Below, piece after piece: positions 18,155 through 48,960 of a stretch of DNA of 64,000 nucleotides. Below the pieces are notes generated by a model. That model did not search any database, was not told where the DNA came from, and saw only the letters and a program-made list of their open reading frames with translations. The stretch comes from Carboxylicivirga linearis (lineage in GTDB: Bacteria > Bacteroidota > Bacteroidia > Bacteroidales > Marinilabiliaceae), in assembly GCF_018271995.1 (NCBI RefSeq), contig NZ_JAGUCO010000003.1, positions 434,001 to 498,000 of the forward strand, read 5' to 3'. Both the position numbers and the translations under genes were made by a program. Position 1 is the stretch's first letter. Each line of letters begins with the position of its first letter.

Positions 18155-18180
18155 AGATAAAATAGATTTAGCATAGTAAA

Positions 18181-18212
18181 TACCCCTTGATTAAATCCTC
18201 AATCAAGGGGTA
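18181..18212 (-). terminator. Hairpin between the two PL11 genes (attenuator or weak terminator)
   Basis: A 12-bp perfect stem TACCCCTTGATT / AATCAAGGGGTA (18181-18192 with 18201-18212) with an 8-base loop fills most of the 65-base gap. The minus-strand tail after it (TTTACTATGC) has only three U, so full termination is doubtful. It may reduce read-through into lyase A or protect the 3' end of the lyase B message. Confidence 0.55.
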
Positions 18213-18219
18213 ATATTCT

Positions 18220-22821: not shown

Positions 22822-22863
22822 TATTAATGATTTAGTTTTCATAAAAACAGGTAATGATAACAC

Positions 22864-25939: not shown

Positions 25940-25997
25940 AATAAATGAAATTAGTTGAATAATAATATGTATTAATAGCATTAGCCTTTGCTAATGT

Positions 25998-27743
25998 TTA
26001 TTCTTCTTCATCTTTAAGAGGTAACCACCAATTACTTCTGTCTGATAAATAAGTTCTTAATCGGTTTGCTGTGGCCGCGTCTCCTGCCAATTCAAATTTT
26101 CTTGCAATTTTCTCAGCCAGAATAGTGTTATCACCACGGCGAAGAGCAATGCGCACCAGGTCTCCCCAGCGATCTCCTTCGAACGCCATTTCCAGAGCAT
26201 TTTCTTCCAATATTTTATCTTCAATGGTTAGCAAGGAATCAGTTGGTTCGGCCACTGTGAAATTTTGTAAACTAACTCTGTTTCGAAGACCTACATTTCG
26301 GTACCACAATCCTCTGTGTACAGGAGGTGTTTGAAGGTTGTTGGTTGTTCGTGCATCAAAGTCATATGGAAATGGAAGATGAGTCATCTCATAATTAAAC
26401 TGACCGTAAATAGTGTCTTTATTTCCTTCAAAAGCATAATTTGCTTGAATACCATTATTAATTAATGCATAAGCAACTGTATGTTTTCCATCTCTGTTTG
26501 CAGCTTCGCTATAACGAAGATGTAAAGAGCTGGCACGCCATTTAAACCATTTACCTGGTTTTTGTAATGGGTTGTTTTCTTCATGATCTGATGTATATTT
26601 TGTAATAACAGGATTGTTACCGACCATCATATACGATCCGGTATTACCTGCTTCATCTTCGATGTTTCCTCTGAAGTCACCGATAAAACCATTTAATTGA
26701 GTCTGCGAATTCCAGTTCTTGATAGCAGCAGCAGATGGTTTCAGATAATACTCACCATAATCAATGGAAAATAATTCGTAAAAAGGTGAGGGTTCATATT
26801 GTTTATGAAAATACATTAACCAAATCCATTCGTTATCGAAATCTGATGTTCCGTATGTGGAGAACATTGTAGGCCAATTGTTCATTGCACTTTCCAGGTC
26901 ATTTTCGAAGTATCTGGCGTATCGGCTATGATAATTATTACCTGTGAAGAAATCGGTTGGTATTTTATATCTGTCCATATTACCGGTACTACGTTCCATT
27001 ATATTTTTGAAGTAGGAGGCTGAAGCCAGATAATTACCATTCCAAAGGTTTAATTCGCCTAAAAGGTATTCTTTATCAATAAATGCTAGATTAAATGAAA
27101 AACCATCAAAACCTGTAGTCATACCAGTATCGCTATAAGGAAGTTTATAAGGAAGTTCTTCCATAAATTGTAACAATTCGGCTAGCATGTCTTCAATACC
27201 TAACACAGGTATATCTGAATTACCAATATTAAGCAAGTCATCTATAGTTTCAACTGGCTCTGTAATATATGGCACTGAACCATAATGAATAATTAGTTGT
27301 AAGTAAACATAGGTACGTAATGCTCCCATGTCAGAATAGCGTTGATAGTATTGTTCGCGTGTAATTTTTGATCCTTCATACATAATAGTCAGGTTCTTCA
27401 TTACATCGTTACAGTTGTTTATAACCTTGTAAAAGGGTCTGGGATCGGTCCATGGATTATCTAATGCTGTTGTATGTTTACTTACATCTTCCAAGAAGTG
27501 ATCAGCATTGAAAGTGATGTCCATTAAATCGGCTCTTAACTCATTCAATACAACTAATTGCGGAGATAGTTCCTGAAACAGAGCATAGGCCCCAAAAACA
27601 GCACTATTAGCGTCAGCAATGGTTTTATAATGCTCACTGTCTTTCAACACATCCATGTCCTCCACTTCCAATATGTCGTTACATGCAGAAAAAAGTGCGA
27701 TGAATGCTAAAAAGAGGACTATTATAGGTGAATTCTTTTTCAT
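25998..27743 (-). CDS. SusD-like outer-membrane glycan-binding lipoprotein (pair 1)
   Basis: A 581-residue RagB/SusD-family lipoprotein with lipobox LFSAC (Cys21). The N-terminal half has the helical repeat pattern of the family (VFGAYALFQELSPQ, NNCNDVMKNL, LRTYVYLQLIIHYGSVPY). The C-terminus has the common NALEMAFEGDRWGDLVRIALRRGD segment, quoted here in part: FEGDRWGDLVRIALRRGD. SusD-like proteins cap their SusC partner from the outer leaflet and hand over oligosaccharides. The partner is the SusC at 27765-30950, which ends 21 bases upstream. The substrate is probably a rhamnogalacturonan fragment by context. Regulation is with the operon starting at 41486. Confidence 0.92.
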   Translation of the reverse strand: MKKNSPIIVLFLAFIALFSACNDILEVEDMDVLKDSEHYKTIADANSAVFGAYALFQELSPQLVVLNELRADLMDITFNADHFLEDVSKHTTALDNPWTDPRPFYKVINNCNDVMKNLTIMYEGSKITREQYYQRYSDMGALRTYVYLQLIIHYGSVPYITEPVETIDDLLNIGNSDIPVLGIEDMLAELLQFMEELPYKLPYSDTGMTTGFDGFSFNLAFIDKEYLLGELNLWNGNYLASASYFKNIMERSTGNMDRYKIPTDFFTGNNYHSRYARYFENDLESAMNNWPTMFSTYGTSDFDNEWIWLMYFHKQYEPSPFYELFSIDYGEYYLKPSAAAIKNWNSQTQLNGFIGDFRGNIEDEAGNTGSYMMVGNNPVITKYTSDHEENNPLQKPGKWFKWRASSLHLRYSEAANRDGKHTVAYALINNGIQANYAFEGNKDTIYGQFNYEMTHLPFPYDFDARTTNNLQTPPVHRGLWYRNVGLRNRVSLQNFTVAEPTDSLLTIEDKILEENALEMAFEGDRWGDLVRIALRRGDNTILAEKIARKFELAGDAATANRLRTYLSDRSNWWLPLKDEEE

Positions 27744-27764
27744 AATCTTGACTGTTTCTGTTGA

Positions 27765-30700
27765 TTAAAGTTTTAGTTTAAGACCCAGTAAAATAGATTG
27801 ACTCTGAGGAACTAGACCAACATCAATACCTTTAGTTAAAGTGCTATTGCCAGCGCTGAAGTCAGGATCTAAGCCTTTGTATTTGGTAAATGTTAGTAAG
27901 TTGTTGCCTGTCACATAAATCTCAGGACGCTCCATGAAACCAGTTTTGATAGGCAGTTTATAACTCAGGGTAACATTTCTTAGTCTGATGTATGAACCAT
28001 CTTCGATCCAACGGTCAGAAAAACGATTGTTCATCATTGGATCATCATAGGTGGCTTTAGGCATAGTTGTTACTTGTCCTTCATAACGCCATCTGTTTCT
28101 AACTGCCTTGGTTTGATTGTTGTATGAATCCATGTTTTCAAGTTGCGAACGCATGTAGTTAAATACATCATTACCATAAGAAAAACCAACGTTGGCAACC
28201 AGTGTGATGTCCTTGTAATTAACACGTGTATTTATTTCTCCAAAAAAGTCTGGAGTTGGATCTCCAATAACAACTCTATCATTTTCATCAATAATACTTG
28301 TGTATTCTTCTCCCTCTATATTATCCTTATGGTGGTCAACAAAAATTACATCACCAGCTTCAAAAGGAACAATAGATGTGTTTGGTAATAGGTTCCCCAA
28401 ATTTGCATTTGATGCTGCTTCTGTGGTTGCATACACACCATTTGTTTCGTATCCGTAAAAAACACCAATCGGTTTACCTACTTCTGTTAAGATGGTTGCA
28501 CCATACATCTCCGTTTCAAGTCTGTTATCATTTAGAGCTGTAACTTCTGTAGTGTACTTACCAATAGCAAGACCTAAGTCCCAATTGACTGTTCCGCTTA
28601 TAATTTTACCTGTAATACCCAAATCAATTCCCTGAGTGGTGAAACTACCGTTATTGAAAAAGTAATTTGCTTCACCCGAATAAATTGAAGCAACTTTGTT
28701 TTCAACTAGGTTATCGGTTGTATTTTGATAAATATCAGCAGAAATGATTAGTCGACTTCTAAGCAACTCCATATCCATTCCTACATTTACTTTAGTGTTT
28801 GTTTCCCATTGTATAGCCGGATTTGGAATATTACCCCTAATAATACCTTGTTGTCCCAGGTAATTAATGGCAGAATAGTATTTGTAACGATGGTACAAAC
28901 TGTAATCATCATTGCCGGTTAATCCATAGCTAGCCCTTAATTTAAGCAGGTTGACAAAAGATAAATTGGATAAAAAGTTTTCAGAAGATAGCAACCAGGC
29001 TCCGGATATCGAAGGAAAAACTCCATAGACAAAGTCTCCAATTTTTAAACCATCAGCTTCGGATCCAAAATGAGAAGCTCCATCTAAAGCTAAGCTGGCT
29101 GATAGGAAGTACTTTTTGCTAAAACCATAGTTTGCCATAGCGTAATAGGTAATAGAACTCCAATCGCTTAAGAAACCACCTGATTGATTAAAAATCGCGT
29201 TTCCTTGTCCTACTGTAGTATATTGATCACTAGGAGTGTTTGCTCCGGTAGCTCGGTCTTCTTCAATACGATTCATGTTAATACGCGCTCCTGCTACAGC
29301 ATTAAAATCATGCACCCTATTAAATGTTTTGTCGTAATTAACTCTAAAATCGTTGTTGATAGTGAATTGTTTAACAGTTCGGAATCCATTTCGGTTATAA
29401 ATAACTCCTAAATCGGTTGTGTCCGGAACAATCCCGTAAGAAGGAATAAAAAATGTTTCGCGGTCTTTATCAAATACAACACCAATAAGGTTATGCACTG
29501 TCAGATTTTTATTCACTTTAGCGTTAAAGTTGAATGATCCTACAAAACGATAGTTACGCACTTGTTGTTCAAGTGGATTATTACTTTGCATGATAGATGC
29601 TGGATTGGAATTACCAAAAACATCATAATCTTCATATACCGGGCTGTAAACACCAGTTGAAGTGCGGTTAAACATGGTAAGAAGAGGTGATTTTACCATG
29701 GTTTGGTAATATGGATTATCAAGGCTGGTTAAACCAGTACCACTCATATGGTTTTGTTGACCTTGCATAAAGCTGATATTAGAGTTAAGGCTAAAAACCT
29801 TACTTATATTAATATCAGAATTAAAGCGCATATTAAACTTGCTATAGTCGGTGCCAGTAACAGTACCTTCATTTTTCAGGTAACCAACAGATAAGGCATA
29901 TAGAGCTACATCGTCACCACCCGTAATGCGAAATCCAACGTTAGTATTATAGCTCTGGGCAAATAATTCTTTTTGCCAATCAGTATTATTGTGATATCGA
30001 TAATACTCTTCATAACCAGGAGTATTAATCATGTAAGGTAAACGTCTAATAGAATCGGTTGACAAACCTTGACTTTGCAACATCTCACTTAAGAATAGAG
30101 AAAAATCATCAGCTTCCATTAATGGATAACCCTGAGGGGCTAAGTTGATTCCACCTGACATATTAAATTCAATCTTATTCGATTGTTCTGTAGCATGATT
30201 AGTTCTAATATAAACTACTCCATTTGCAGCCTTCGATCCAAAAATGGATACTGCATCTTTTACAACAGATATATTCTCAATATCGGTAATGTCAATGGCT
30301 GTAAACTGATTCTTACGTTGCCCATTAATGATGCTTGTACCATATTCTCTATCATCATAAATCATCCCATCCACCACAATTAATGGTCGATTATTACCAT
30401 AAAGAGATGAAAAACCTCTTAGGAAGATATCAGATCCAACACCCGGAACTCCAGAACGGCTTAAAACTTCCATTCCGGGAACACGACCTTTGAAAGTGCT
30501 TTCTCCAGATTCAGCTCCGGTAAGGGCTGCATTGTCGTATGGTGTATTTACCTGCAAATTTGTAACAGCCTGTGTTGAGTAGGCCTGTTTGGTAGAATAA
30601 AAGCCAGTATGGTAATCTCGTTGAAAAGAAGAGTAGCCAAGAGGTGCCATGTAAATGTTGATCTCTGATCTACCTGCGATAACAATGTCTTGTGAGATAT

Positions 30701-30950
30701 AGCCAAATGCAGATACCTTTAAAACTCCCTGATATGAAATAACTCCTATTTCAAATTTTCCTTCAATATCAGAAAAGGTAGAAGCAATTGAGTCATTATC
30801 GATAGCAACGAATTCAACAGGCTCATTTGTTTGTATGTCAAAGACTGTACCTGTAATCTTTTGGAGTTCGCTCTCCTGCACCTGGGCAATGGCTGCAGAA
30901 CCTCCAATAAAGACAAAGATGAGTAAGTATATAAATTTAATTTTCGTCAT
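27765..30950 (-). CDS. SusC-like TonB-dependent transporter (pair 1)
   Basis: A 1061-residue outer-membrane receptor with a signal peptide ending AAIAQ. Residues about 28-105 form a carboxypeptidase-D-like regulatory domain (ITGTVFDIQTNEPVEFVAI). The plug follows (about 130-255, SDIFLRGFSSLYGNNRPLIVVDG, then NISVVKDAVSIFGSKAANGV) and then a 22-strand barrel. The terminal SILLGLKLKL has the alternating pattern of a last beta strand. No STN domain precedes the carboxypeptidase-D-like domain, so direct ECF-sigma signalling is unlikely. It takes up oligosaccharides with TonB energy together with SusD (25998-27743). It starts 7 bases after the FAS1 gene upstream. Confidence 0.94.
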   Translation of the reverse strand: MTKIKFIYLLIFVFIGGSAAIAQVQESELQKITGTVFDIQTNEPVEFVAIDNDSIASTFSDIEGKFEIGVISYQGVLKVSAFGYISQDIVIAGRSEINIYMAPLGYSSFQRDYHTGFYSTKQAYSTQAVTNLQVNTPYDNAALTGAESGESTFKGRVPGMEVLSRSGVPGVGSDIFLRGFSSLYGNNRPLIVVDGMIYDDREYGTSIINGQRKNQFTAIDITDIENISVVKDAVSIFGSKAANGVVYIRTNHATEQSNKIEFNMSGGINLAPQGYPLMEADDFSLFLSEMLQSQGLSTDSIRRLPYMINTPGYEEYYRYHNNTDWQKELFAQSYNTNVGFRITGGDDVALYALSVGYLKNEGTVTGTDYSKFNMRFNSDINISKVFSLNSNISFMQGQQNHMSGTGLTSLDNPYYQTMVKSPLLTMFNRTSTGVYSPVYEDYDVFGNSNPASIMQSNNPLEQQVRNYRFVGSFNFNAKVNKNLTVHNLIGVVFDKDRETFFIPSYGIVPDTTDLGVIYNRNGFRTVKQFTINNDFRVNYDKTFNRVHDFNAVAGARINMNRIEEDRATGANTPSDQYTTVGQGNAIFNQSGGFLSDWSSITYYAMANYGFSKKYFLSASLALDGASHFGSEADGLKIGDFVYGVFPSISGAWLLSSENFLSNLSFVNLLKLRASYGLTGNDDYSLYHRYKYYSAINYLGQQGIIRGNIPNPAIQWETNTKVNVGMDMELLRSRLIISADIYQNTTDNLVENKVASIYSGEANYFFNNGSFTTQGIDLGITGKIISGTVNWDLGLAIGKYTTEVTALNDNRLETEMYGATILTEVGKPIGVFYGYETNGVYATTEAASNANLGNLLPNTSIVPFEAGDVIFVDHHKDNIEGEEYTSIIDENDRVVIGDPTPDFFGEINTRVNYKDITLVANVGFSYGNDVFNYMRSQLENMDSYNNQTKAVRNRWRYEGQVTTMPKATYDDPMMNNRFSDRWIEDGSYIRLRNVTLSYKLPIKTGFMERPEIYVTGNNLLTFTKYKGLDPDFSAGNSTLTKGIDVGLVPQSQSILLGLKLKL

Positions 30951-30957
30951 GGTGCTT

Positions 30958-32493
30958 TTAATTTTCAGATTGTTCGAAAACAGGTACTAGTTTTATGTAA
31001 TCGGCTGTTACAGCTTTGTCGCCTTCGTTTTGAAGCCAGACATAGAGATCTCGCATATAGGTAAAGCTTCTCATTCCAACTTCTTCCTCCACTGCCTCGT
31101 CGTACGATAAGGCTGTTACATCTGTAAAGTCAGATACACCAGTCATCGGGTTGAAATTAAAGACCTCGTTTGTTTCGTCTATTAAGGTGGTATAACCTAG
31201 TCTTTGTCTTAATACAAAATCTTCCGAAGTATCGGGTAGTCTGTATGATCCATTAAAGTCATTTACCGCCTTCCAATAGAACTTATACTTAGTTGCTGCA
31301 ACTGTTCCGGCATGAAGAATTAAACCTGATGCCTGAACTCCTGAAGACCAATTATCCAATACATAATCAAAACCACCAGATGCTTGAGGGCGGATTCTCA
31401 GATGACCGCCCGGTGATCCGGCTATATCATTACCATTTATTTTGTAATTGTCGATAAAACGATTAATAGATTCCGTTTCAACAATAATGGGTAGTATCTT
31501 ATTCTCTAAAGGTACCGGGCAAGCTGAAATATGATGAACCCACCCGTTGCTTGCATAAAAAGATTCAGTAATCAAGTTCTTATCAATTGGTACCATAATT
31601 GAATCCACTGAAAGTACTAGAGAAGGAATATCAGAAGCAGTATAACTAGTGCTAAATGCGTAGTCTTTAGTTATTTTGGATAAACACATTGCAGTATCTA
31701 GTTTAAGGGCTTCTTCAGTGACACTTGGACTTACCTTGTAATAAGGCAGATACTTATTAAATTCAGTGTCGAATGCACTATCATCAATAATTAATAAGGT
31801 GAATGTTGAGTCTTCTGCTCTTAAATCAGCAACCTCATCCAGAAAAGCATTCTTCCAAACCATTCCTGATAGAGTATCATAAATGGCTTGTCCATCATTA
31901 GTATAACCAATAATTTCAGCTACTTCAGGATCAAATACTTCTCCTGAAAGAGAGTTAAGATATTCAATATGCTTGCTGGTGCCTGAATAATTTTCTACAT
32001 ACTCCCAAATATTCATTCTGGGTTCAAGTGTATTGTCAACTAACTGAAGAAAACCATTTTTAGCAGGTATATCTACTGTACTAATGGTAACTTGATCTAC
32101 CTTATTACCTGAGCCATCGACTTCAACATATTTACCATTAACCATTGATAGCTTTTGTATCTCGGTTAACTGTTTAACCTGCACCGCACCATAATTAATA
32201 TGGTTTCCAACCAGAATTTTTAACTCCTCTTTGTCATCCGGTATATTGGTAAAAGCTTCGTTGTCAGGAGCCCATACTGTTAGCATTATAGGCTGATTAA
32301 TGATGCTATCTAACCCACTTGTTTTAATGGCTGAGACAAAATTACTGTATTCAGATCTGGATTCCAGTAATTCCATAAGTGTGGCAGAAGCAGTATTGTC
32401 GGCTATGTCGGCATGGTCCTCCCAAGCGTCCTGACACCCCATGGTGAAAAGAACCAGTAATATAGCAGTAATTAGATTAATATATTTTTTCAT
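30958..32493 (-). CDS. FAS1 (fasciclin) domain surface lipoprotein 3
   Basis: The start at 32493 gives 511 residues and a proper lipoprotein signal (LVLFTMGC, Cys20); an ATG 21 bases upstream is less likely. At least one clear FAS1 domain is seen (about 40-165: LMELLESRSEYSNFVSAIK, TVWAPDNEAFTNI, GFLQLVDNTLEP), and a second, more divergent one follows (about 170-330: FTLLIIDDSAFDTEF to GWVHHISACPVP). The C-terminal 150 residues (HLRIRPQASGGFDYVLDNW and later) look like a beta-sandwich carbohydrate-binding fold. FAS1 domains mediate adhesion or ligand binding in many taxa. Between two SusCD pairs the protein is a candidate surface glycan-binding protein standing in for SusE/F. This is inference from position. 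Confidence 0.85.
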   Translation of the reverse strand: MKKYINLITAILLVLFTMGCQDAWEDHADIADNTASATLMELLESRSEYSNFVSAIKTSGLDSIINQPIMLTVWAPDNEAFTNIPDDKEELKILVGNHINYGAVQVKQLTEIQKLSMVNGKYVEVDGSGNKVDQVTISTVDIPAKNGFLQLVDNTLEPRMNIWEYVENYSGTSKHIEYLNSLSGEVFDPEVAEIIGYTNDGQAIYDTLSGMVWKNAFLDEVADLRAEDSTFTLLIIDDSAFDTEFNKYLPYYKVSPSVTEEALKLDTAMCLSKITKDYAFSTSYTASDIPSLVLSVDSIMVPIDKNLITESFYASNGWVHHISACPVPLENKILPIIVETESINRFIDNYKINGNDIAGSPGGHLRIRPQASGGFDYVLDNWSSGVQASGLILHAGTVAATKYKFYWKAVNDFNGSYRLPDTSEDFVLRQRLGYTTLIDETNEVFNFNPMTGVSDFTDVTALSYDEAVEEEVGMRSFTYMRDLYVWLQNEGDKAVTADYIKLVPVFEQSEN

Positions 32494-32527
32494 ACTTGTG
32501 TTTTTTCTATCCATTAGTTTCGTTAGG

Positions 32528-34279
32528 TTATTCAGGTACAGTCATTGGAGGTAATCCCTCTTTGTAGATTCTGGAATTATCAACAACATTACTTTTGGGC
32601 CATATCTGATCCATATCAGTTGGAATAAAATGGATTTGGTCTAACCATAAATGTCTTCCGGCAAAGGCAGTAATTCCAACAAATCGTACTTTATGACGGC
32701 CGGTTGTTTCCACGTTAATTGTACCTGCTAACTGTCCGGTAAATCGTCCGGAACCAGAGCCATCCACGTAACGATAGGCAGTTGAATCGCGCTCAGGCCA
32801 GAATGAATACCATTTTAAACCTTGCAGTTCATACTCTTCTTCACTAACATCGCGGCTTAATGTTGTATTGGTATCAATAATAACAGGTAATACTTCATCA
32901 TTGAAATACACAAAGAAGATCGGATTTCGATATCCGGAAGAAGGATAAACGTTACGAGTACAAGTCCATAGTTTGTATTGTCCTTTAACTAAAACGGGAG
33001 TTGTGAATTCAATCCATGGAGTTACTTCCGGACGTAAATACACATTTAAATAATCACCTAAAACATAAGGATAAGGTGAGTTGGATGTACCAACGGTATA
33101 TTCAATATCTGTACCATCAGGCCATACAATATCTTCTAATTGCCCTGGAGAAAGAGTTACACTCTGTTTTCTGTATATTCCAGGCATCTTTCTAATCTCC
33201 AATTGGTCTGTTACCTCCCAATAAACAGGGAATGGTTGGCGTACTTTAATTCCATAGTCACTATCTACCACATGTAAAACTCCATTATTGGCAGTTACGT
33301 CTGATAAATCACGATTGATAGGATAACCGGGTTCGATTTCACCGTTAAAGACATCTTCGTTGATTAATACTTCACCATCTGCATTTTTAATAGTGATAAC
33401 TTCAAGAGGAGCGTAGGTTAAATGAGCTGCCTGCTCCTGAAGGTCTGAAACGTACTTAAGCTGGTGGTCAAGTATATGATAAGCCATGTACAGATATAAG
33501 CTGTCGGTAGCGAGTGTTGGATCTCCGGTATCAGAATATTTCTCAACAAGATCATTATAACTTAAAATCTCATCTTTTGCATATGCTTCATCAGGAATAG
33601 CAACAACTGTGAAATGACGAGGGTTTTCATCCTCTCTGCTTACTTTTAAACTAAGTGTATCGGCAAGTGTTGTCTGTACTAGCGCCTCATGGAAAATGCT
33701 ATAATTTTCATCATCGGCTATTATTTCAGTCAGAGTTCTGGTTTCTGGTCTTAAAACATCATTAACTGAATAGAAAACTCCATTTAATAAACGTTTGTCT
33801 TTAATATCTATTTCTGCATACTTATTAATTAGATATTGTAAGTCATCACCATTATTGATTGCTTGAGTGGTAAGATATTGTCCATACATGGAAGGAGTCT
33901 GCATTCTGCCATCTATAAACAGGGTAGAGGCAATGGTATCTCTTATGGTATGAAACCTTACCAGATCTTTCAATTCTTCTTCTGTGAAGTCATTAACTCC
34001 ACTTTTTCCTTGTTCTTCAAAATACCTGCTAAAGGCTTCGTTGTTTGGAGCAAATACAGTGTAAGCACCGTAAGCCTTAAGGAATGAAATAGAGTTGCTT
34101 TGTTCAAGAACTTCAACGTAGGTTGAGAATTGATCAGGATTTGTCTCCAGATATTCACCAATTAATTGTTCGTAATTGGTTCTCTCTGTATATTCTTCAT
34201 TTTGGCAGTTAGTAAACATCATGGATACAACAACTGTCAAAATAAGTGAGCTCTGCTTAAATAAATATGATTTTTTCAT
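32528..34279 (-). CDS. FAS1 domain surface lipoprotein 2
   Basis: The start at 34279 (MKKSYLFKQSS) gives 583 residues with a lipobox ending FTNC (Cys25); 35 extra in-frame codons upstream encode no signal and are probably not translated. Two FAS1 domains are visible: about 45-185 (YTVFAPNNEAFSRYFEEQ, LNGVFYSVNDVL) and about 190-345 (HFTVVAIPDEAYAKDEI, NGVLHVVDSDYGI). The remaining 240 residues form a separate C-terminal region, with a final block (about 460-565) containing GRHKVRFVGITAFAGRHLW and LDQIHFIP, similar in style to carbohydrate-binding beta-sandwiches. It lies between SusD pair 2 and FAS1 lipoprotein 3. A role in glycan capture on the cell surface is inferred from its position and the lipid anchor. 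Confidence 0.85.
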   Translation of the reverse strand: MKKSYLFKQSSLILTVVVSMMFTNCQNEEYTERTNYEQLIGEYLETNPDQFSTYVEVLEQSNSISFLKAYGAYTVFAPNNEAFSRYFEEQGKSGVNDFTEEELKDLVRFHTIRDTIASTLFIDGRMQTPSMYGQYLTTQAINNGDDLQYLINKYAEIDIKDKRLLNGVFYSVNDVLRPETRTLTEIIADDENYSIFHEALVQTTLADTLSLKVSREDENPRHFTVVAIPDEAYAKDEILSYNDLVEKYSDTGDPTLATDSLYLYMAYHILDHQLKYVSDLQEQAAHLTYAPLEVITIKNADGEVLINEDVFNGEIEPGYPINRDLSDVTANNGVLHVVDSDYGIKVRQPFPVYWEVTDQLEIRKMPGIYRKQSVTLSPGQLEDIVWPDGTDIEYTVGTSNSPYPYVLGDYLNVYLRPEVTPWIEFTTPVLVKGQYKLWTCTRNVYPSSGYRNPIFFVYFNDEVLPVIIDTNTTLSRDVSEEEYELQGLKWYSFWPERDSTAYRYVDGSGSGRFTGQLAGTINVETTGRHKVRFVGITAFAGRHLWLDQIHFIPTDMDQIWPKSNVVDNSRIYKEGLPPMTVPE

Positions 34280-34406
34280 GATTCTTAGATTTTCAAAAAC
34301 ATTTTTAGCAAACCAAACAGATGAAAGTAAGTGACATAAAAACTGGCCTCTTATTTTTTGAGATATGTCTTTAGTGGTAGTCATCTGTTATAGGTATTAA
34401 CTCAAT

Positions 34407-35921
34407 TTAATTTCTGTAAAAAGGATTCTGCTCCAATATAGGATAGCCTGCATTTATATCATCTTGATTTATTGGAAAGTAATGACTCAAGGTATCCTGA
34501 TATTTACTCAAAATAGTTTGCGTACGGTTGCTGGGTGAACCCAGCAGTACCATGGTTCTTATTAAATCCATGCGTTCGTAATTGTTACGACGAGCATTTC
34601 TCAGAACATCTAACCAACGTTTACCTTCGAATGCAAATTCGCGAGCTCTCTCGTTAACTATGTAGGATATTAATCCATAGGTAGTTGGGGATTCATTGTC
34701 TGATATCTCCTGTGTTTCTTTAGCAGCCTTGGATCTGTTTCTAATGACATTGATAAGTCTAAGAGATTCTTCTAAATCACCTTCATTAGCTCTCATTGCT
34801 AATGCTTCAGCTTTTAATAAAAGAACATCGGCGTATCTATAAACTATAAAGTTTGATGTGGATTGATCATCTGTTTTAGCAACACTGCGATTCACTCCAA
34901 TATACTTCCACAATTTATATTGACGAGAAGAACGGTAAGAACCGCGATCACCTCTAATATCCAAACTATCCGGATCGAGATAAATATCAATTGGGAAATA
35001 GTTTTCAATAATGTCTGCATTAGCAGTGAATAGTGGATTGTTGTTAAACATGCTATAAAACGGATTCAGATACTGATCTGTATATTGCAACTCAAAAATT
35101 CCTTCTATCGAATTGGTTTCGTGAAACAAAGTGGTAAGCCAAAGTTGACCAAAAGGTACTAATCCAAATTTACCGGTATTAATAACCTTATCGGCTGCTT
35201 CAATACTTTTGTTATAGTCGTTGGTCCATAAATATAAATTGGCTTGCATTGCATTAATGGCTGCTTTGGTTATTCGGCCTTTATCGCTTTCAATGTCATC
35301 AAAATTAACTACTGCAGTTTGTTCAGCCCGGATAAAATCGGCTTCTATCTGAGCTAATACTTCAGACATTGGACTCTTTGGTATTCTTAATTCCTGATCA
35401 TCAGATAAAGTAGCCTCTAACACAAGCGGTACTTCTCCAAAAAAGCGAACCAAATAAAAATACATCAGTCCTCTAATAGCATAGGCCTCTGATAAATATA
35501 CATCCAACATTTCTCTTGTAAACGAATCATCAATATCCAGTACCGAAGGGGCTTTTTCTATAAAGTTGTTGCAGAAGTTAATGGTTCTGTATAATGGAGC
35601 CCATCGCACTAAACCAAGAGTTGGTAAGATATCACCGTTGTTCACAAAAATATAGTCTCCATAATTAAGGGAGGTAACCATTTCAGCTCTAACCTCACCC
35701 CATCTAATAAATAATGAAGGGTGGTCCTGTAGCATAGATGAATACATTCCCATAGCGGCACTGTGAACTTCTTCTTTTGATTGCCAATAGTCTTTTACTG
35801 TAATACTGTTCTGAGGCTCCAGGTGCAACCAGTCATCACATGACAGGCTCACAAGAGAGACAAGCAGAGCCATTGCAACTACTTTTATTGATTTAGTTTT
35901 ATATTGAAATTTATATAACAT
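34407..35921 (-). CDS. SusD-like outer-membrane glycan-binding lipoprotein (pair 2)
   Basis: A 504-residue RagB/SusD lipoprotein with lipobox VSLSC (Cys28). Family features are clear: DDWLHLEPQNSITVKDYW, AAMGMYSSMLQDHPS, EAYAIRGLMYFYLVRFFGEV, and near the C-terminus VNERAREFAFEGKRWLDVLR. The family's TPR-like helical core supports the binding surface for the glycan. It is shorter than the other SusD in the window (504 against 581 residues) and the two share little sequence, so they probably bind different oligomers. It starts 12 bases after its SusC partner ends. A gap of 127 bases separates it from FAS1 lipoprotein 2, the largest gap inside this operon. Confidence 0.94.
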   Translation of the reverse strand: MLYKFQYKTKSIKVVAMALLVSLVSLSCDDWLHLEPQNSITVKDYWQSKEEVHSAAMGMYSSMLQDHPSLFIRWGEVRAEMVTSLNYGDYIFVNNGDILPTLGLVRWAPLYRTINFCNNFIEKAPSVLDIDDSFTREMLDVYLSEAYAIRGLMYFYLVRFFGEVPLVLEATLSDDQELRIPKSPMSEVLAQIEADFIRAEQTAVVNFDDIESDKGRITKAAINAMQANLYLWTNDYNKSIEAADKVINTGKFGLVPFGQLWLTTLFHETNSIEGIFELQYTDQYLNPFYSMFNNNPLFTANADIIENYFPIDIYLDPDSLDIRGDRGSYRSSRQYKLWKYIGVNRSVAKTDDQSTSNFIVYRYADVLLLKAEALAMRANEGDLEESLRLINVIRNRSKAAKETQEISDNESPTTYGLISYIVNERAREFAFEGKRWLDVLRNARRNNYERMDLIRTMVLLGSPSNRTQTILSKYQDTLSHYFPINQDDINAGYPILEQNPFYRN

Positions 35922-35933
35922 GGCTACTTACTT

Positions 35934-38900
35934 TTAAAATTGAACACTTAAGTTAAAGGTGACATTTCTGGTAACCGGGGTTTGAGAGTTATCATAACCT
36001 ACGGTATACATGGTTCCATCTTGAGACTTAATACTGATTTCAGGGTCTTGACCGCTATAATTGGTAAATGTCAAAAGGTTATTTACAGTGGCTGACAAAC
36101 GTGCTGATTGCATGCCAAGTTTTCTACAGAAGGTCCTAGGTATGCGATAGGCCAGTGTAATATACTTAAGGCGTAAGAAGCTACCATCTTCAATAAAACG
36201 ATCAGAACCCAGGTAGTTATATCCATAAAAAGTAGCACGAGGCATATCTGTAATATCTCCCTCTTTTCTCCATCTTTTTAGAACTGCTTTGGTCTGATTG
36301 TCGTACCCGTCCATACTCTCACCATTCATTTTGGTACTATTAATAATGTCATTGCCAACACTGTAATAGAAATAGTAGTTAAATGAAACATTTTTGTAGG
36401 TGATATTTTGACCAAATCCTCCTGTGAAAGTCGGGTTGGCATTTCCCAGATAAACGACATCGGCAGCGTTTATATTACCATCGTTATTGACATCCTCGTA
36501 CATGGCATCACCCATCTGAAATTCATAACCAATATTTCCATAGTCGTAAATCATGTAAACAGGTAAGCCATTTGGATCGGTGATAATGTTGCCTGCTGCA
36601 TCGCGTGCTATTAACTGATCAGGATTAGTGTAAACTCCTTTATACTTATAACCATAGAACGATCCGGCCGGATTATCTATCTGTGCAAATCTTATGTATT
36701 CTCCATTAGTAGGAGCTTGATCCATAACTCCTGAAAAATCATCAGCAATCTCGCGAATGATGTTATAATTTCGTGCTATATTAAAGTCGAAGGAAACTTT
36801 CCAGGTTTTATTTCTAACCGGCCAGGTTCTTACTTGTAAGTCCCATCCGTAATTGTCTAATGTACCAATGTTTTTAACTGATTGAGATCCATAACCTGAT
36901 GTTGATTGTGTGGCAACTCTGTATGATAATAAATCCTCAGTTCGGGTTTTATAGAAGTCAATATCTGTGCTAAGGCGTCCGTCGAACATTTCAGCTGTAA
37001 TACCCGCATTGGTTGATTGTATGCTTTCCCACTTTAGGTTTTGTAATTGCATATTACCTGGGTAAACACCTGTAGTTCCCAAATAAGAAAAATCATACGT
37101 ATAATAGTTACTGTAGAACATAGACTCGTTACGTGGAGGGTGTCCGTTTTCACCATAACTGAATCGTAGTCGTACATCATCTAAAAATGTAAACTGCTGC
37201 ATAAATGGTTCGCCGGATATACGCCATGCAGCTGATACACTTGGGAAATTACCCCAACGATACTTTTTATCAAATCTTGAGTTACCGTCACGTCTGATTC
37301 CGGCAGAAAGGATGTATCGATCAAGCAAGCTATAATGGAACATTGCCATAGCACCCACTGATCTGCCGTTGCCTTGTACCGTTCTACCTCCATATCCCGA
37401 GATATTGTCACGACCACTTCCTGATGCATCCGGAAGGGAAGATGAAATACCATTCGCTTTCGTTAAATAAGAACCATAACCTATGTATTCGTTGGTTTGG
37501 AAATTTAAGGTTGCCGTTAACTTATGTTTTTCTTCATCAAAGGTTTTGAAATAAGTTAATCGGTTATTTGTGTAAATGTTATATGAATCATCATCTCTGT
37601 CAATCATTCTGTTGGCTAAGGTGCTTGTCATAGCAACTCCGGTAGCTTCCTGAGGTAGAAACTGCTTAAGTTTATTAGAGTTAACGTCCAGAGATAAATC
37701 AAGTGCATACCTAAGGTCATTAGTGATGTTATATTGCAGGTTGAACTTTGAATTAACACGATCGTTAATGGTGTTTTGGACTCCAAGTTCTGCCAAGGCT
37801 ACCGGGTTATACATTATTGGAAAAATACCTTGAGCATTACTTTCAGGAGCAAAATAGTTACCTGTTAATTCTCCAAATGCGTTGTACTCATATATCGACA
37901 TGTTAGGCATCATGCGATAAGCCGTACTTCTGATACTGGTAGAATTTCGGATTAAACCATTTTCTGTATAATTACCATAGGTATCACCATGTGCATAAGA
38001 GAAATCGGCGCGTAGCTTCAGTCGTTCAGATATATAATAATCAAGATTCAGACGGGCTGATAATCTGTCCAGGCCACTTCCAATGGTCACACCTTGTTGG
38101 TCTTGATAGTTAAGCGAGAAACGATAGGTTGCTTTGTCTCCACCACCATCAATCGAAAGGTCGTGGTTATGGATGTAACCTGTTTGTGAAATGGCATCCA
38201 TCCAATTGGTATTCTGACCGTAATTATAGAAATAATAAGGTTCAGTAGGAAGGTATAAAAACTCTTTTCTGATGCTAGTATTTAAAGGTCTGTTATAGGT
38301 ATTTTGGTAAGCTTCTAAAATAAGAGTAGAATATTCATCTCCATTTAATACGGGTAGCGCTTCCGGTTTTTCAGTAAAAGTACCTCTGTAAGTATAGGTA
38401 ACTCTTGGCGCACGTCCTCTTACACCACGCTTGGTTGTAACCATTAGCACACCGTTAGAAGCTTTTGGTCCCCACATAGCTGTAGAAGCAGCATCTTTTA
38501 GTACAGTAATTTCTTTGATATCACTAACCGAAATATTCAGCATCTGCGAATATCCTTCTTCGTTGGCTGTTGCAAAATCAAAGTCAGCTGAAATATTTGT
38601 TTCGTAAGGTACGTTATCAACAACAATCATAGGACGAGCGTCAGCTGAAAAGGAACTAACACCCCTGATTCGTATTGACATACCAGCTCCCGGGTCACCC
38701 GAGTTGGCTGCAATGTTTACACCAGCTAATCTACCTTGTAGGGCTTCATCAATAGAAGAGGCCTGAACATCATCAAACTCTTCAGCTGATATTTTAGAAA
38801 CAGCTACTGCCATATCTCTGGCATCCAAATTCATAAAGCCGGTATTGGTTTTTTGAATCGCAGTTACCTGTACGCCTTCAATTTCAACTACTTCCTCTTT

Positions 38901-39209
38901 TAAAACAATATTATATTGTGTTTTCTCTGCAGAAAAAGGAACGATTTGCTCTTTAAAGCCGATAAAGGAAAATTTCAGTGTAGCTGTACTTTTGGGAACA
39001 TCTATAACAAAGTCACCATTTAGGTTGGTTATGGTACCATGAAGCATACGGTCGCTTTTGTCTAGAGCAATAACTCCTACTCCTGGAAGGGGACCTTGAC
39101 TAATTTCATCTGTAACACGTCCGCTTACCGTTATCCGGTCTTGCGCAAAAGAGACAGTGCTTATTAACGTAAACACATATAATGTGAATATTGTGAGTAT
39201 CTTATTCAT
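35934..39209 (-). CDS. SusC-like TonB-dependent transporter (pair 2)
   Basis: A 1091-residue outer-membrane receptor with a signal peptide ending VSFAQ. A carboxypeptidase-D-like domain (about 26-105, SGRVTDEISQGPLPGVGVIA) is followed by the plug domain (about 130-260: ALQGRLAGVNIA, MSIRIRGVSSFSADARPMIV, EITVLKDAASTAMWGPKASN) and the barrel. The plug motifs are canonical for SusC, and the last strand reads VTRNVTFNLSVQF. No STN domain is present. It forms the uptake pore with the SusD at 34407-35921. The FAS1 gene upstream ends 6 bases before its start, supporting one transcript. By context the cargo is a rhamnogalacturonan oligomer. Confidence 0.95.
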   Translation of the reverse strand: MNKILTIFTLYVFTLISTVSFAQDRITVSGRVTDEISQGPLPGVGVIALDKSDRMLHGTITNLNGDFVIDVPKSTATLKFSFIGFKEQIVPFSAEKTQYNIVLKEEVVEIEGVQVTAIQKTNTGFMNLDARDMAVAVSKISAEEFDDVQASSIDEALQGRLAGVNIAANSGDPGAGMSIRIRGVSSFSADARPMIVVDNVPYETNISADFDFATANEEGYSQMLNISVSDIKEITVLKDAASTAMWGPKASNGVLMVTTKRGVRGRAPRVTYTYRGTFTEKPEALPVLNGDEYSTLILEAYQNTYNRPLNTSIRKEFLYLPTEPYYFYNYGQNTNWMDAISQTGYIHNHDLSIDGGGDKATYRFSLNYQDQQGVTIGSGLDRLSARLNLDYYISERLKLRADFSYAHGDTYGNYTENGLIRNSTSIRSTAYRMMPNMSIYEYNAFGELTGNYFAPESNAQGIFPIMYNPVALAELGVQNTINDRVNSKFNLQYNITNDLRYALDLSLDVNSNKLKQFLPQEATGVAMTSTLANRMIDRDDDSYNIYTNNRLTYFKTFDEEKHKLTATLNFQTNEYIGYGSYLTKANGISSSLPDASGSGRDNISGYGGRTVQGNGRSVGAMAMFHYSLLDRYILSAGIRRDGNSRFDKKYRWGNFPSVSAAWRISGEPFMQQFTFLDDVRLRFSYGENGHPPRNESMFYSNYYTYDFSYLGTTGVYPGNMQLQNLKWESIQSTNAGITAEMFDGRLSTDIDFYKTRTEDLLSYRVATQSTSGYGSQSVKNIGTLDNYGWDLQVRTWPVRNKTWKVSFDFNIARNYNIIREIADDFSGVMDQAPTNGEYIRFAQIDNPAGSFYGYKYKGVYTNPDQLIARDAAGNIITDPNGLPVYMIYDYGNIGYEFQMGDAMYEDVNNDGNINAADVVYLGNANPTFTGGFGQNITYKNVSFNYYFYYSVGNDIINSTKMNGESMDGYDNQTKAVLKRWRKEGDITDMPRATFYGYNYLGSDRFIEDGSFLRLKYITLAYRIPRTFCRKLGMQSARLSATVNNLLTFTNYSGQDPEISIKSQDGTMYTVGYDNSQTPVTRNVTFNLSVQF

Positions 39210-39215
39210 GAATGG

Positions 39216-41486
39216 TTAATTTTTTGGGAAGCGTAAAAAATCATCTGCCTGATGAAGGACAGCTCGGTTAGCTAATACATTACTTCTTGAATTAACTATG
39301 TTTACAGGAGCGTCACGACCTTCTACATAAATTTGCATTTCTCCGCCCTGGCATATTACTGAAACATAAGTGTCACCATCTACAGTTTTATAAAGCGTTT
39401 TTACCGGAGCACCAAAGTCATTACTTGGAACAATAATATTATTGGTAAGAACATGGTATTTTACAAAGTTGTAAACCATCTGTTGCTCATCCTGAGTGAA
39501 ATTTGCAACTGTTATTTCAGGTAAATAACCTTCATCTACCGCTCTTTGCATAGCAGCATCATTAGGAATGATAATAGTGTTAGGTACCGATACTTTTACG
39601 TCTGTTATAGCTTGTGTTAGTATGCTGTAAATAAACCCATCGTTTGATTCACCTTCGGAGTTAGGGCTAGTTGCCGACTTATATAGGTACTGATAAAACA
39701 TACCAAAGCTGGCAAGATTCTTAGTAATGTGATAGCCCACATTCTCGGTTGAAAATAAAATTGGTTCTGCTACGGTGTATGATTGTCCATTAGATGCTTC
39801 GTCTTCGATAGGACCTAAATATTCAGGACCACTGTTAAATCGTTCATTACCTGACGAAGTAAGGAAGTATCTGCCGCGGTATGTTGCCAATCTAACATAT
39901 TCACCATTTTCGAATAAACCTGATTTATAGATGCCGGGAACAGCAAAGTCGATATCTTTATTTAAGAAGATATGTAAACTTAGTAAGCGTTCTAATGCTA
40001 CCAGTGCGTTATTTCCTAATGGGTTATTGTCTGATATCTCCCATGAAGCCCTTCCATAATTATACCTAATTCCGGTTGCATCCATTTGATCGTTATCTAA
40101 AAGAATCATCTGAATGTTAATATCCGGACTGCTGTTTTTAAGCAGAGTTTTTATGGTAGGAAAGGTGTTGATAGCATTAAGCATATTAGAGTATTTGGGA
40201 TTTAATGATACATCGCCAAAAACAGTATAATATAAGTCTGATCCCTGAACCACATTAGTGCCATAGAATAGCCCGTTGCTACACATGGTTTTATCATCAA
40301 TTTCTGTATCAGGATCAAAACGAGCCTCTTCACCATGAATATTTTTGTACAAATTGAATTTACTTGGCCACATGGTATTTTTCCAAAGGTGAGCATTAAC
40401 AAAGTCCGCAATCTGGTCTGTTGTCATTTGCTCAATTGACTCGTAGTATTTTAAGAATTTCTCGTTAAAGAAAGTTTCAATAGCTGCATTATTAGGAGCA
40501 AACATGGTAAAACCTTCCTTCTGGTCATCATACCACTCGCCTCCGCCTGTACCTTTTAGGTAGTTCTCAACATTAGGAGAAAAGTAAGCTTGAGGATAGC
40601 CTTTAATAAAAACATCTTCATAAACGCCGGTAACTTCTTCATTCCTGATTAAAAAGTAATCATCAGCTAATCCATATTGTAATAAATAATCGTTTAATAT
40701 GTTTTTGAAAGTACTGTATTGGTCTTTCTCTGCTAATGCCTCTTCTATATTGGGTAAAGGTAAAATAACCTTATCAACCACGTGGATAATTCCATTTTCA
40801 GCATATAAATCCGATTCTGTTACCTGTGCATCCGCAACATTAAATTCTCCTAAAGTGGTGTTTGGGAAGAAGTAGTTGTAATCATATGAAGATAAGTTCA
40901 GGGATTGAAGAAATGGAGCCGTGAAATAGGGTATATTCTTAAAATTATTATCATCGTATGATATATCTGCACCGGTGTATTCCATTGGACCAACACGGTT
41001 AACATCTATAACCTTTTGACTTCCCAGTCCTTCAATTTCTTCGTCATAAGTCCATTTGTAATAAGCAGTTTTTCTTTTGAATGCCACGTCTGGCATTTCA
41101 ATCTCTTCATTTGTAGTTTGATAGTCGTCTATCTCACTAACAGAATATCTGTTTTGAACCAATGCATAGGAAACAATATCATTTGCCAATTCTGCGGATA
41201 TATCATTCACTGAAGATAGACCTTGTTCTTGCAGAAATGTTGTAAAAGCTTGATCGGTGGGAGCAAATAAAGTATAGAAACCGGCTCCGTTCAGAGTCTT
41301 AGAATAACCCGCTTTTTCAATGCATGTTAAAAAAGAGTTGAAATTTCCTTTTTCCTGAAGTTGAACAAGTATGTTTGACTCCAGCCAATCGGGTCTGTCG
41401 TAGTAGGTGTCTTTTTCATTTTCGCAACTCCATAAAAGAAGTACGGTAATGAAAAAACTCAAATGAAAGATTGATATTTTTTTCAT
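39216..41486 (-). CDS. Multi-FAS1 domain surface lipoprotein 1 (first gene of the SusCD operon)
   Basis: A 756-residue lipoprotein (lipobox LLWSC, Cys21). About four FAS1-like units can be made out: about 38-250 (GFYTLFAPTDQAFTTFLQEQ, NGIIHVVDKVILPL), about 255-425 (GFTMFAPNNAAIETFFNEKF, NGLFYGTNVV), a divergent one about 430-600, and about 640-752 (NTIIIPNDAAMQRAVDEGY, NRAVLHQADDFLRF). The domain boundaries of unit 3 are uncertain. FAS1 proteins generally act in adhesion or ligand binding. As the first gene, before SusC and only 6 bases from it, it may be a surface glycan receptor. It is expected to be controlled by the promoter region at 41566-41644. Confidence 0.88.
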   Translation of the reverse strand: MKKISIFHLSFFITVLLLWSCENEKDTYYDRPDWLESNILVQLQEKGNFNSFLTCIEKAGYSKTLNGAGFYTLFAPTDQAFTTFLQEQGLSSVNDISAELANDIVSYALVQNRYSVSEIDDYQTTNEEIEMPDVAFKRKTAYYKWTYDEEIEGLGSQKVIDVNRVGPMEYTGADISYDDNNFKNIPYFTAPFLQSLNLSSYDYNYFFPNTTLGEFNVADAQVTESDLYAENGIIHVVDKVILPLPNIEEALAEKDQYSTFKNILNDYLLQYGLADDYFLIRNEEVTGVYEDVFIKGYPQAYFSPNVENYLKGTGGGEWYDDQKEGFTMFAPNNAAIETFFNEKFLKYYESIEQMTTDQIADFVNAHLWKNTMWPSKFNLYKNIHGEEARFDPDTEIDDKTMCSNGLFYGTNVVQGSDLYYTVFGDVSLNPKYSNMLNAINTFPTIKTLLKNSSPDINIQMILLDNDQMDATGIRYNYGRASWEISDNNPLGNNALVALERLLSLHIFLNKDIDFAVPGIYKSGLFENGEYVRLATYRGRYFLTSSGNERFNSGPEYLGPIEDEASNGQSYTVAEPILFSTENVGYHITKNLASFGMFYQYLYKSATSPNSEGESNDGFIYSILTQAITDVKVSVPNTIIIPNDAAMQRAVDEGYLPEITVANFTQDEQQMVYNFVKYHVLTNNIIVPSNDFGAPVKTLYKTVDGDTYVSVICQGGEMQIYVEGRDAPVNIVNSRSNVLANRAVLHQADDFLRFPKN

Positions 41487-42030: not shown

Positions 42031-43176
42031 ATGATACAAGCAATAGGAAAACAAACTTTACGCATACTATTACTAGCAGTAATATTGATCTCGCATGATG
42101 GATTAACTGCCCAAACAATACCCAACCGCGAAGAAACATTAAAGACCGTTGTTTCGGTTAATAATTATTTCATGACCAAATTTGAGGACTACAAGGCTCC
42201 TTCAAATGTTGGACGATTACGACCTAGTAATATATGGACACGCGGAGTGTATTACGAAGGGCTGATGGCTTTGTATTCTGTATTGCCTGAAGAAAAATAC
42301 TATGCATACGCTTACGATTGGGCCGAATTTCACAAATGGGATTACCGTAATGGTCCGTCAACACGTAATGCTGATGACTATTGTGCAGGTCAGACTTATA
42401 TTGATTTATACAGATTAAATCCCGAACCTCACATGATCAGAAAGGTAATTGCTAACCTGGATATGTTGGTAAATACACCTCAGAATGATGATTGGTGGTG
42501 GATTGACGCAATTCAGATGGGAATGCCGGTGTTTGCAAAATTGGGAACAACCTTGGGTGAGCCTAAGTACTACGATAAGATGTGGGATATGTATGAATAC
42601 TGTCGTAACCAAATGGCAGGAGGTCTTTTTAATCCGGAAGATAACCTTTGGTGGCGCGATGGTGATTTTATCCCTCCTTATAAAGAACCAAACGGTGAAG
42701 ATTGTTATTGGTCTCGCGGAAATGGTTGGGTGTATGCTGCCTTGGTGCGTGTGATGGATGAAATTCCATTGGATGAAAAACATTACAAAGATTATCAGAA
42801 AGACTTTTTGGCAATGACCGAAGCTTTAGTAAAATGTCAGCGTAAGGATGGTTTATGGAATGTGAGTTTACACGATCCTAAAAACTTTGGAGGCAAAGAA
42901 GTAACCGGAACATCATTATTTGTATACGGAATGGCTTGGGGAGTGAACAATGGAATTCTTGATAAGAAAACGTATTTGCCCATTATTAAAAAAGCATGGG
43001 ATGCTATGGTAAAAGACGCCGTTCATGATAATGGATATTTAGGATATGTTCAAGGTACAGGTAAAGAGCCGAAAGATGGTCAGCCAGTAAAATACGATAG
43101 CGTACCAGATTTTGAGGATTATGGAGTAGGATGTTTCTTATTGGCCGGAGTTGAAGTATATAAGTTGGAGGAATAA
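42031..43176 (+). CDS. GH105 unsaturated rhamnogalacturonyl hydrolase
   Basis: A 381-residue secreted (alpha/alpha)6-barrel enzyme with a signal peptide ending GLTAQ. Family motifs are IWTRGVYYEGLMALY, DDWWWIDAIQMGMPVF with the candidate catalytic D159, and YWSRGNGWVYAALVRVMDEI. GH105 hydrates the double bond of the unsaturated galacturonate at the non-reducing end left by PL11 or other pectate-type lyases, opening it to a keto-uronate. Length is that of a single-module member, in contrast to the fused GH105 at 8587-11700. It is the first gene of a plus-strand operon with a 3-base gap to the CE12 gene. Confidence 0.93.
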   Translation: MIQAIGKQTLRILLLAVILISHDGLTAQTIPNREETLKTVVSVNNYFMTKFEDYKAPSNVGRLRPSNIWTRGVYYEGLMALYSVLPEEKYYAYAYDWAEFHKWDYRNGPSTRNADDYCAGQTYIDLYRLNPEPHMIRKVIANLDMLVNTPQNDDWWWIDAIQMGMPVFAKLGTTLGEPKYYDKMWDMYEYCRNQMAGGLFNPEDNLWWRDGDFIPPYKEPNGEDCYWSRGNGWVYAALVRVMDEIPLDEKHYKDYQKDFLAMTEALVKCQRKDGLWNVSLHDPKNFGGKEVTGTSLFVYGMAWGVNNGILDKKTYLPIIKKAWDAMVKDAVHDNGYLGYVQGTGKEPKDGQPVKYDSVPDFEDYGVGCFLLAGVEVYKLEE

Positions 43177-43179
43177 CAA

Positions 43180-45127: not shown

Positions 45128-45216
45128 ATTTTAGTTTATTAGTTATTAGGCAGTAGTCAGAAGTAGATTATACCACAATGTAAGATTAAATTGAAACCAA
45201 TTGAAGTCACATTCTC

Positions 45217-46674: not shown

Positions 46675-46678
46675 AATC

Positions 46679-48904: not shown

Positions 48905-48908
48905 TAAG

Positions 48909-48942
48909 TATGAAAAGCCTCTGCGGCTTGAGCGGTGAACTC
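48909..48942 (+). repeat. Partial tail copy of the dispersed intergenic repeat
   Basis: The segment ATGAAAAGCCTCTGCGGC, then TTGAGCGGTGAA, matches the 3' end of the repeats at 59361-59560 and 60742-60960 (ATGAAAAGCCTCGCGGC, then TAGAGCGAAG). It includes a small hairpin AAGCC / GGCTT. It lies in the 56 bases between the PL11 and GH28 genes. Confidence 0.55.
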
Positions 48943-48960
48943 GAATAAAAAAAAGTGAGC

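Follow-up and report, generated by a model that had tools for sequence, protein, structure and literature searches.

The genome of Carboxylicivirga linearis contains, on the minus strand of a 64,000-nucleotide stretch (contig NZ_JAGUCO010000003.1, positions 434,001 to 498,000; hereafter the window), a cassette of seven genes in the order FAS1a-SusC1-SusD1-FAS2-FAS3-SusC2-SusD2 (window positions 25998-41486), encoding two SusC/SusD (SusCD) pairs together with three predicted lipoproteins carrying fasciclin (FAS1) domains. The same seven genes were found in the same order in 39 of the 46 FAS2-type loci examined, the window included, and in several families. We propose, with about even confidence, that the cassette specifies a single outer-membrane uptake module in which FAS2 and FAS3 serve as surface binders, and we place this reading ahead of one in which the FAS1 proteins act as scaffold. 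As judged from the families of the surrounding genes, the cassette of the window genome is most likely part of the uptake of rhamnogalacturonan-I (RG-I).

Conservation and composition of the cassette

The 39 complete loci consist of 27 of 34 FAS2-type loci (window included) and all 12 fetched DUF5108 loci, as judged by best hits, of f26, a family of the same order as the window genome, for which Bacteroidaceae would fit as a guess. As FAS2 or DUF5108 served to locate the loci, these counts show the company of FAS2 and not the frequency of FAS1 genes in polysaccharide utilization loci (PULs). Within f26, DUF5108 was detected in 20 of 301 genomes, with 28 matches. Among the seven incomplete loci, three hold a lone FAS2 (L024, L027, L076), two are cut by the end of the stretch (L080, L096), one is permuted and cut (L075), and one lacks FAS3 and is also cut (L095). 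Two FAS2-type matches above 100 bits (G006:C123 and G028:C36) were left out of the set of 34 loci, and G268, being the same locus as L029, was counted once. When named genome contigs were searched for FAS2, eight loci were obtained, six of them complete and in the window order (Belliella calami and five Flavobacterium records); the other two, from Flavobacterium, carry a lone FAS2 within the fetched stretch. F. fluvii has a lone-FAS2 locus plus a complete cassette elsewhere (L094), and contig C44 of the window genome itself carries another complete cassette, a divergent one. In a sample of 395 genomes of the phylum, just 8 (the window genome among them) had a FAS2 orthologue scoring above 450 bits, indicating that the RG-I form is not common.

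The relation between FAS2 and DUF5108 (PF17133) was analysed by profile comparison. The window FAS2 alignment (A1) and an alignment of ten f26 DUF5108 proteins (A4) matched across columns 25-550 (hhalign, probability 100, E 3.5e-57), indicating that FAS2 is homologous to the f26 DUF5108 proteins over most of its length. The Pfam DUF5108 model gave weak matches in seven of the nine members of A1 (best 2.3e-4) and none for the window FAS2 at E 10; it was identified at the C-terminus of one FAS2 of group B (L077; the groups are defined below). In the phylum sample, DUF5108 was matched in 4 of 395 genomes, in one of them above the cut-off.

Most of the cassette proteins fall to about 20-45% identity between families, with the order still kept. 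We compared the protein distance matrices of the 27 complete cassettes, and all 21 gene pairs were correlated at r 0.925-0.980, against a maximum of 0.558 in 999 permutations. The cassettes were split into groups A (20 cassettes) and B (7) by a FAS2 score line at about 450 bits, which was set non-blind; the median distance correlation was 0.963 within group A and 0.945 within group B. Correlation of this kind follows from shared ancestry alone, and it speaks against frequent single-gene exchange between cassettes. The order of the gene block is not due to chance, and the FAS1 proteins probably belong to the uptake machine as a regular component, rather than being an oddity of one genome.

All seven open reading frames were present on the minus strand. 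The first, FAS1a (39216-41486, 756 amino acids), is a predicted lipoprotein with several FAS1 repeats; PF02469 (Fasciclin) matched it with 107 bits in four stretches, two of which match different parts of the profile, so that the domains may number fewer than four. SusC1 (35934-39209, 1091 amino acids) is a SusC/RagA TonB-dependent transporter (TIGR04056, 745 bits, cut-off 368), and SusD1 (34407-35921, 504 amino acids) a SusD-family lipoprotein (PF07980, 94.4 bits; PF14322, 52 bits). FAS2 (32528-34384) comprises 618 amino acids, or 583 from an inner ATG at 34279; relatives align to this inner start, which is likely the true one. A pair of FAS1 domains (PF02469, 84 bits, two stretches) is followed in FAS2 by a C-terminal domain that resembles a carbohydrate-binding module (CBM) in the predicted structure. 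FAS3 (30958-32514, 518 amino acids) has one PF02469 stretch (57 bits), giving one or more FAS1 domains, and a predicted CBM22-like C-terminal domain. SusC2 (27765-30950, 1061 amino acids) is the second SusC/RagA transporter (TIGR04056, 582 bits, cut-off 368), and SusD2 (25998-27743, 581 amino acids) is a second, more divergent SusD-family lipoprotein (PF07980, 31.7 bits, cut-off 23.1), for which the N-terminal model PF14322 stayed at 16.2 bits, under its cut-off of 27. All three FAS proteins exceeded the PF02469 cut-off of 22, and Pfam detected TonB-plug and SusD domains in the four other proteins.

A sequence-only reading of this DNA had described the minus-strand run of FAS1, SusC and SusD genes with a gene for a protein exported by the type IX secretion system (T9SS) beyond it, and the reading frames and families were confirmed by Pfam and NCBIfam. 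It had given the gaps as 6-58 bases except one of 127; small gaps were indeed found, the values of 127 and 58 arising from the inner ATGs of FAS2 and of the T9SS gene. With first ATGs, the intergenic gaps are 6, 12, 22, 13, 7 and 21 bases, with a further 16 to the T9SS gene. The lipoboxes that it had assigned to all three FAS1 proteins were recovered by a simple script as lipobox-like cysteines in LLWSC (FAS1a, where the sequence continues as ENEKDTY), MFTNC and FTMGC. With the same script, such a cysteine was found in 80 of the 81 FAS proteins of the 27 complete cassettes, the exception being FAS2 of G042. Acidic residues following the lipidated cysteine would fit an export signal. In agreement with the same reading, no SusE/SusF-type Pfam match was obtained among 34 distinct window proteins scanned at thresholds of E 0.1 (the eight proteins of the cassette and the T9SS gene) and 0.001 or 1e-5 (the other scans).

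Recent tandem duplication of a single SusCD-FAS1 unit was considered as an origin of the cassette and rejected, since SusC1 of the relatives is only about 25-30% identical to window SusC2, and vice versa. The Bacteroidota-type promoter consensus consists of TTTG, a spacer, and TAnnTTTG. One match to the full consensus was found in the window against 4.2 expected, and none near FAS1a; the TAnnTTTG half alone occurred 54 times against 80 expected, with no minus-strand site between 41487 and 42030, and this consensus was not usable here.

Three lone FAS2 homologues lie in stretches without SusCD: L024:8117-9829 near GH2-type genes, L027:10001-11719 near GH2-, GH28- and GH106-type genes, and L076:9196-11079 near PL11. 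At locus L075 (G028:C45:140001-160000), a FAS2-type gene stands ahead of FAS1a, and genome G028 contains six FAS2-type matches of at least 100 bits.

Predicted folds and motifs of the FAS1 proteins

AlphaFold2 models were built for FAS2 (from the inner start) and FAS3, using alignments of 9 and 7 rows, respectively. Residues 25-343 of the FAS2 model resembled the FAS1 pair of TGFBIp (7as7; Z 16.6, rmsd 6.6, 257 aligned). The C-terminal part of FAS2 (residues 348-557) resembled the C-terminal part of xanthan lyase (6f2p; Z 12.2, rmsd 3.1, 138 aligned), MiXBM (7ehg; Z 11.1, rmsd 2.6, 127 aligned) and CBM4 (4bj0; Z 10.1, rmsd 3.2, 142 aligned). Residues 349-557 also matched CBM35 of Clostridium thermocellum (2w47; Z 9.2, rmsd 3.2, 128 aligned); this likeness, at 16% identity, is one of fold. 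The 2w47 structure holds delta-4,5-anhydrogalacturonic acid, which is the type of end group that lyases leave. For FAS3, residues 340-513 matched the N-terminal part of xylanase Xyn10B (2wys; Z 11.4, rmsd 3.1, 138 aligned), and residues 341-512 a CBM22 tandem (4xup; Z 10.6, rmsd 3.2, 141 aligned). The models suggest that the C-termini of FAS2 and FAS3 are beta-sandwiches like those of sugar-binding modules (CBM35, CBM6, CBM22), and that the sugar-binding part is likely the C-terminal domain rather than the FAS1 repeats. The top matches of these C-termini either bind carbohydrate or belong to carbohydrate-active enzymes. When solved relatives were searched by sequence, every match listed fell within a FAS1 part and none within the C-terminal end of FAS2 or FAS3.

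Between groups A and B, identity to the window FAS2 dropped from 42.1 to 28.3% in the first FAS1 domain, from 42.5 to 27.7% in the second, and from 40.7 to 17.5% in the C-terminal domain. For FAS3, the corresponding values were 33.0 to 23.5% and 34.4 to 20.8% in the FAS1 parts and 32.2 to 15.3% in the C-terminal domain. A steeper C-terminal fall is expected if the task of the FAS1 part is constant and it is the C-terminal end that contacts the glycan. Next to the lipidated cysteine, FAS3 carries a C-x(2-5)-W motif in all 27 complete cassettes; inspection by eye showed it also in the f26 cassettes, with G586 the one exception among 12, and, likewise by eye, a YY-x-RP-like motif after the cysteine in most FAS1a proteins. 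Both motifs may be docking sites.

Co-occurrence with RG-I genes

The PL11 rhamnogalacturonan lyase gene was found in seven of the eight genomes with FAS2 above 450 bits (own genome included) and in 14 of the 387 others (p 3e-9, which, like the p values below, is too favourable for the reasons given in the next section). In the eighth genome (G073), a PL4 rhamnogalacturonan lyase gene lies directly after SusD2, with GH28 and GH105-type genes nearby. Within f26, all 20 DUF5108 genomes had PL11, against 127 of 281 others (p 3e-7). Among group A cassettes, 11 of 20 had PL11 at most 30 kb from FAS2, compared with none of the seven in group B (p 0.013); of the 12 f26 cassettes, at least five had it within 30 kb (G493, G534, G551, G566, G487). 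The stretches fetched around the cassettes, 20 to 64 kb long, included rhamnose genes for 7 of the 20 cassettes in group A and for none of the 7 in group B. The NCBIfam cut-offs were passed by RhaT and a bifunctional aldolase in G099 and by RhaT and RhaA in G019; the isomerase of G099, RhaT of G001 and the kinases remained under theirs. RG-lyase genes thus co-occur with the cassette almost always and are often not adjacent, closeness being weaker than co-occurrence.

In 14 PL11 genomes without a cassette hit, a search with the FAS2 profile gave FAS1 matches in 10 genomes and nothing above noise past profile position 295 of 582, indicating that PL11 does not require the cassette. Group B copies have other neighbours, namely a T9SS protein combining a Glyco_hydro_cc core with an H-type lectin domain next to the C44 cassette of the window genome, GH43, GH2, a Glyco_hydro_88 enzyme and a heparinase-II/III-like protein in G003, and a GH9-GH5 protein 8 kb away in G042. 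Because of these neighbours, the cassette itself seems not to be bound to RG-I, while one of its branches is.

In the window, the cassette is followed on the minus strand by the T9SS-exported protein (23117-25981; PF18962 and TIGR04183, no other known domain). Its homologues (25-43% identity) stand directly after SusD2 in the RG-I cassettes of five genomes (G001, G006, G019, G033, G014), and we regard it as a candidate secreted RG-I protein. Further along the minus strand are two T9SS-exported PL11 rhamnogalacturonan lyases (13589-22863; PF21348, 811 and 516 bits), followed at 753-13396 by genes identified with Pfam, in downstream order, as a sulfatase, a GH105-GDSL-GH43 fusion, GDSL, GH106, GH28 and GH2. 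On the divergent plus-strand side, Pfam identified GH105, GDSL, DUF4450, GH28, PL11 and GH28 (42031-50295), the GH105 assignment resting on a Glyco_hydro_88 match plus context. Unrelated genes separate this block from an AraC regulator (minus strand) and plus-strand genes for RhaT, RhaM, RhaA, a class II aldolase, an FGGY kinase and a second class II aldolase (55128-63795 for the whole group; Pfam). The gene set of an RG-I PUL, that is, RG lyase, GH28, GH105 and GH106 with SusCD, was found in the window, and by family assignment its genes read as a pathway from RG-I to L-rhamnose.

Several further observations were made on these neighbours. The triple fusion of GH105-type, GDSL and GH43 domains is a single protein (8587-11700), and the DUF4450 gene of the RG-I locus (44378-45127) has a weak homologue (24%) near the f26 cassette L117. 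In f26, a protein with a Pectate_lyase_4 match stands directly upstream of FAS1a in L115 (246-1808, 31.2 bits) and L112 (190-1782, 19.6 bits), the cut-off being 24. Several f26 PL11 matches, though near full-length in score, are each interrupted by a single in-frame stop codon (G546, G605, G541, G642, G600, G476).

Proposed role and relation to known systems

According to our proposal, the secreted PL11 lyases would cleave RG-I outside the cell, and FAS2 and FAS3, presumably lipid-anchored at the cell surface, would hold the chains by binding sites in their CBM-like C-terminal domains, for which the FAS1 domains would act as spacers. FAS1a, with its FAS1 repeats, would be a scaffold or an extra binder, and the components of the module may be physically associated. 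The two non-identical SusCD pairs would then import the fragments, perhaps with a division of labour, the GH105, GH28, GH106 and GH2 enzymes would complete the digestion, and the products of the rha genes would consume the rhamnose. The sequence-only reading had suggested multi-domain FAS1 lipoproteins as the glycan-capture layer of an RG-I system. They turned out to be regular partners of both SusCD pairs and predicted lipoproteins, with CBM-like ends predicted for FAS2 and FAS3; the FAS1 repeats appear to be the less likely binder.

A number of points weigh against this proposal. Confidence of the models was moderate (mean pLDDT 59.7 for FAS2 and 56.0 for FAS3), and no Pfam CBM family was matched by any of the cassette FAS proteins scanned. 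Cry toxins and ephrin receptors appear in the same structure-match lists at Z of about 9, and, as they share the fold, a sandwich fold alone is no proof of sugar binding. Parts 3 and 4 of FAS1a, which have no recognised CBM-like end, drop between groups A and B as steeply as the CBM-like ends (31.6 to 16.7% and 34.2 to 17.8%); plain faster drift is thus possible, and this lowers the odds of the capture reading and slightly raises those of the scaffold. With regard to the substrate, 9 of 20 group A cassettes have no PL11 inside 30 kb, and no PL11 homologue was found in the 60 kb around the f26 cassettes of G466, G620 and G607. The p values for co-occurrence are too favourable, since kin genomes are not independent and the sample contains several genomes of one genus, and because the phylum-wide PL11 and FAS2 scoring took in only up to three candidates in many genomes.

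We consider it possible, at lower probability than the uptake module with surface binders, that the FAS1 proteins are structural subunits that dock or join both SusCD pairs and the secreted enzymes, without capturing glycan. Such a role would agree with the C-x(2-5)-W motif of FAS3, which is kept in all 27 complete and in 11 of 12 f26 cassettes although the neighbouring enzymes differ, with the better conservation between groups of the FAS1 domains of FAS2 and FAS3 than of their C-terminal domains, and with FAS1a showing FAS1 repeats only. However, scaffolding alone would hardly account for the CBM-like ends of FAS2 and FAS3, and the roles of binder and scaffold are not exclusive. Still more tentatively, the cassette may be an obligate machine, old in Bacteroidota, in which two different SusCD transporters are physically joined by the three FAS1 lipoproteins, and which has been reused for other glycans through changes in its C-terminal binding domains, with the FAS1 docking parts left as they were. 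The substrates in question would be RG-I in group A and, near some group B copies, those of GH43, GH88 and heparinase-like enzyme sets.

Attachment of cells to the plant wall or to one another is an improbable function of the FAS1 proteins in this cassette. In the accessible parts of two papers, FAS1 is treated as mediating cell-surface interactions (PMC6032426), and adhesion is the interpretation given for a FAS1 protein that is highly transcribed in a Flavobacteriaceae symbiont (PMC10199937). Nutrition is instead indicated by the co-occurrence with RG lyases and by the 39 loci that keep this gene order with two SusCD pairs. That the three FAS1 genes are carried along in a large PUL without a particular function is very improbable: lone FAS2 copies do occur in three loci, but the order is kept in several families although most of the proteins are down to about 20-45% identity.

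The uptake module with FAS2 and FAS3 as surface binders may be compared with known surface proteins. SusE and SusF are lipoproteins encoded beside SusCD, in which spacer domains are followed by a C-terminal beta-sandwich. The FAS proteins are like them and like surface glycan-binding proteins (SGBPs) in being predicted lipoproteins encoded beside SusCD, with spacers and then a predicted C-terminal beta-sandwich that may bind glycan, whereas the cassette differs from both in its FAS1 spacers, the lack of a SusE/F Pfam match and the two SusCD pairs in one cassette. FAS2, as modelled, shares the FAS1 pair fold with TGFBIp, periostin and fasciclin I; unlike these, FAS2 and FAS3 are predicted bacterial lipoproteins with an added CBM-like domain and are encoded within a PUL. 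The cassette is thus a variant of SusCD with surface binders, having an unusual spacer domain and a double transporter, and being unusually conserved. Among the papers listed in searches of the open-licence PMC literature, none was on FAS1 lipoproteins as part of SusCD uptake by its title or abstract, and the available part of PMC10807430 does not mention fasciclin or FAS1.

The sequence-only reading could match this arrangement to no described PUL, which is probably wrong, since the cassette is widespread and a DUF5108 block lies inside a known RG-I PUL. According to the accessible parts of the papers concerned, the RG-I PUL of Bacteroides thetaiotaomicron is BT4145-83 (PMC3243724); BT4164-69 are given as SusC, a DUF5108 protein, hypothetical proteins and a TonB receptor, which change as a block, and BT4176-77 are the GH88 and RhaM genes (PMC10434189). 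Since DUF5108 is listed in BT4164-69, FAS2 is homologous to DUF5108 proteins, and all 12 f26 DUF5108 loci were complete, this PUL very probably holds the cassette, its FAS1 content and exact gene order being extrapolated from the f26 loci and the published gene list. It resembles the window in its RG-I substrate and in having these genes in one block, and differs in its regulator, a hybrid two-component system (HTCS, BT4178) within the PUL as against the AraC gene nearby in the window; as far as the accessible text goes, an HTCS mutant of this PUL grew to 58.5% of the wild type (PMC3243724).

If the FAS1 lipoproteins are a binding or joining layer, PUL annotation would gain a marker for one class of transporter, and DUF5108 would gain a likely fold and role. 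The question of why some PULs need two SusCD pairs would then become testable in B. thetaiotaomicron, a laboratory strain in whose RG-I PUL these genes seem to be present.

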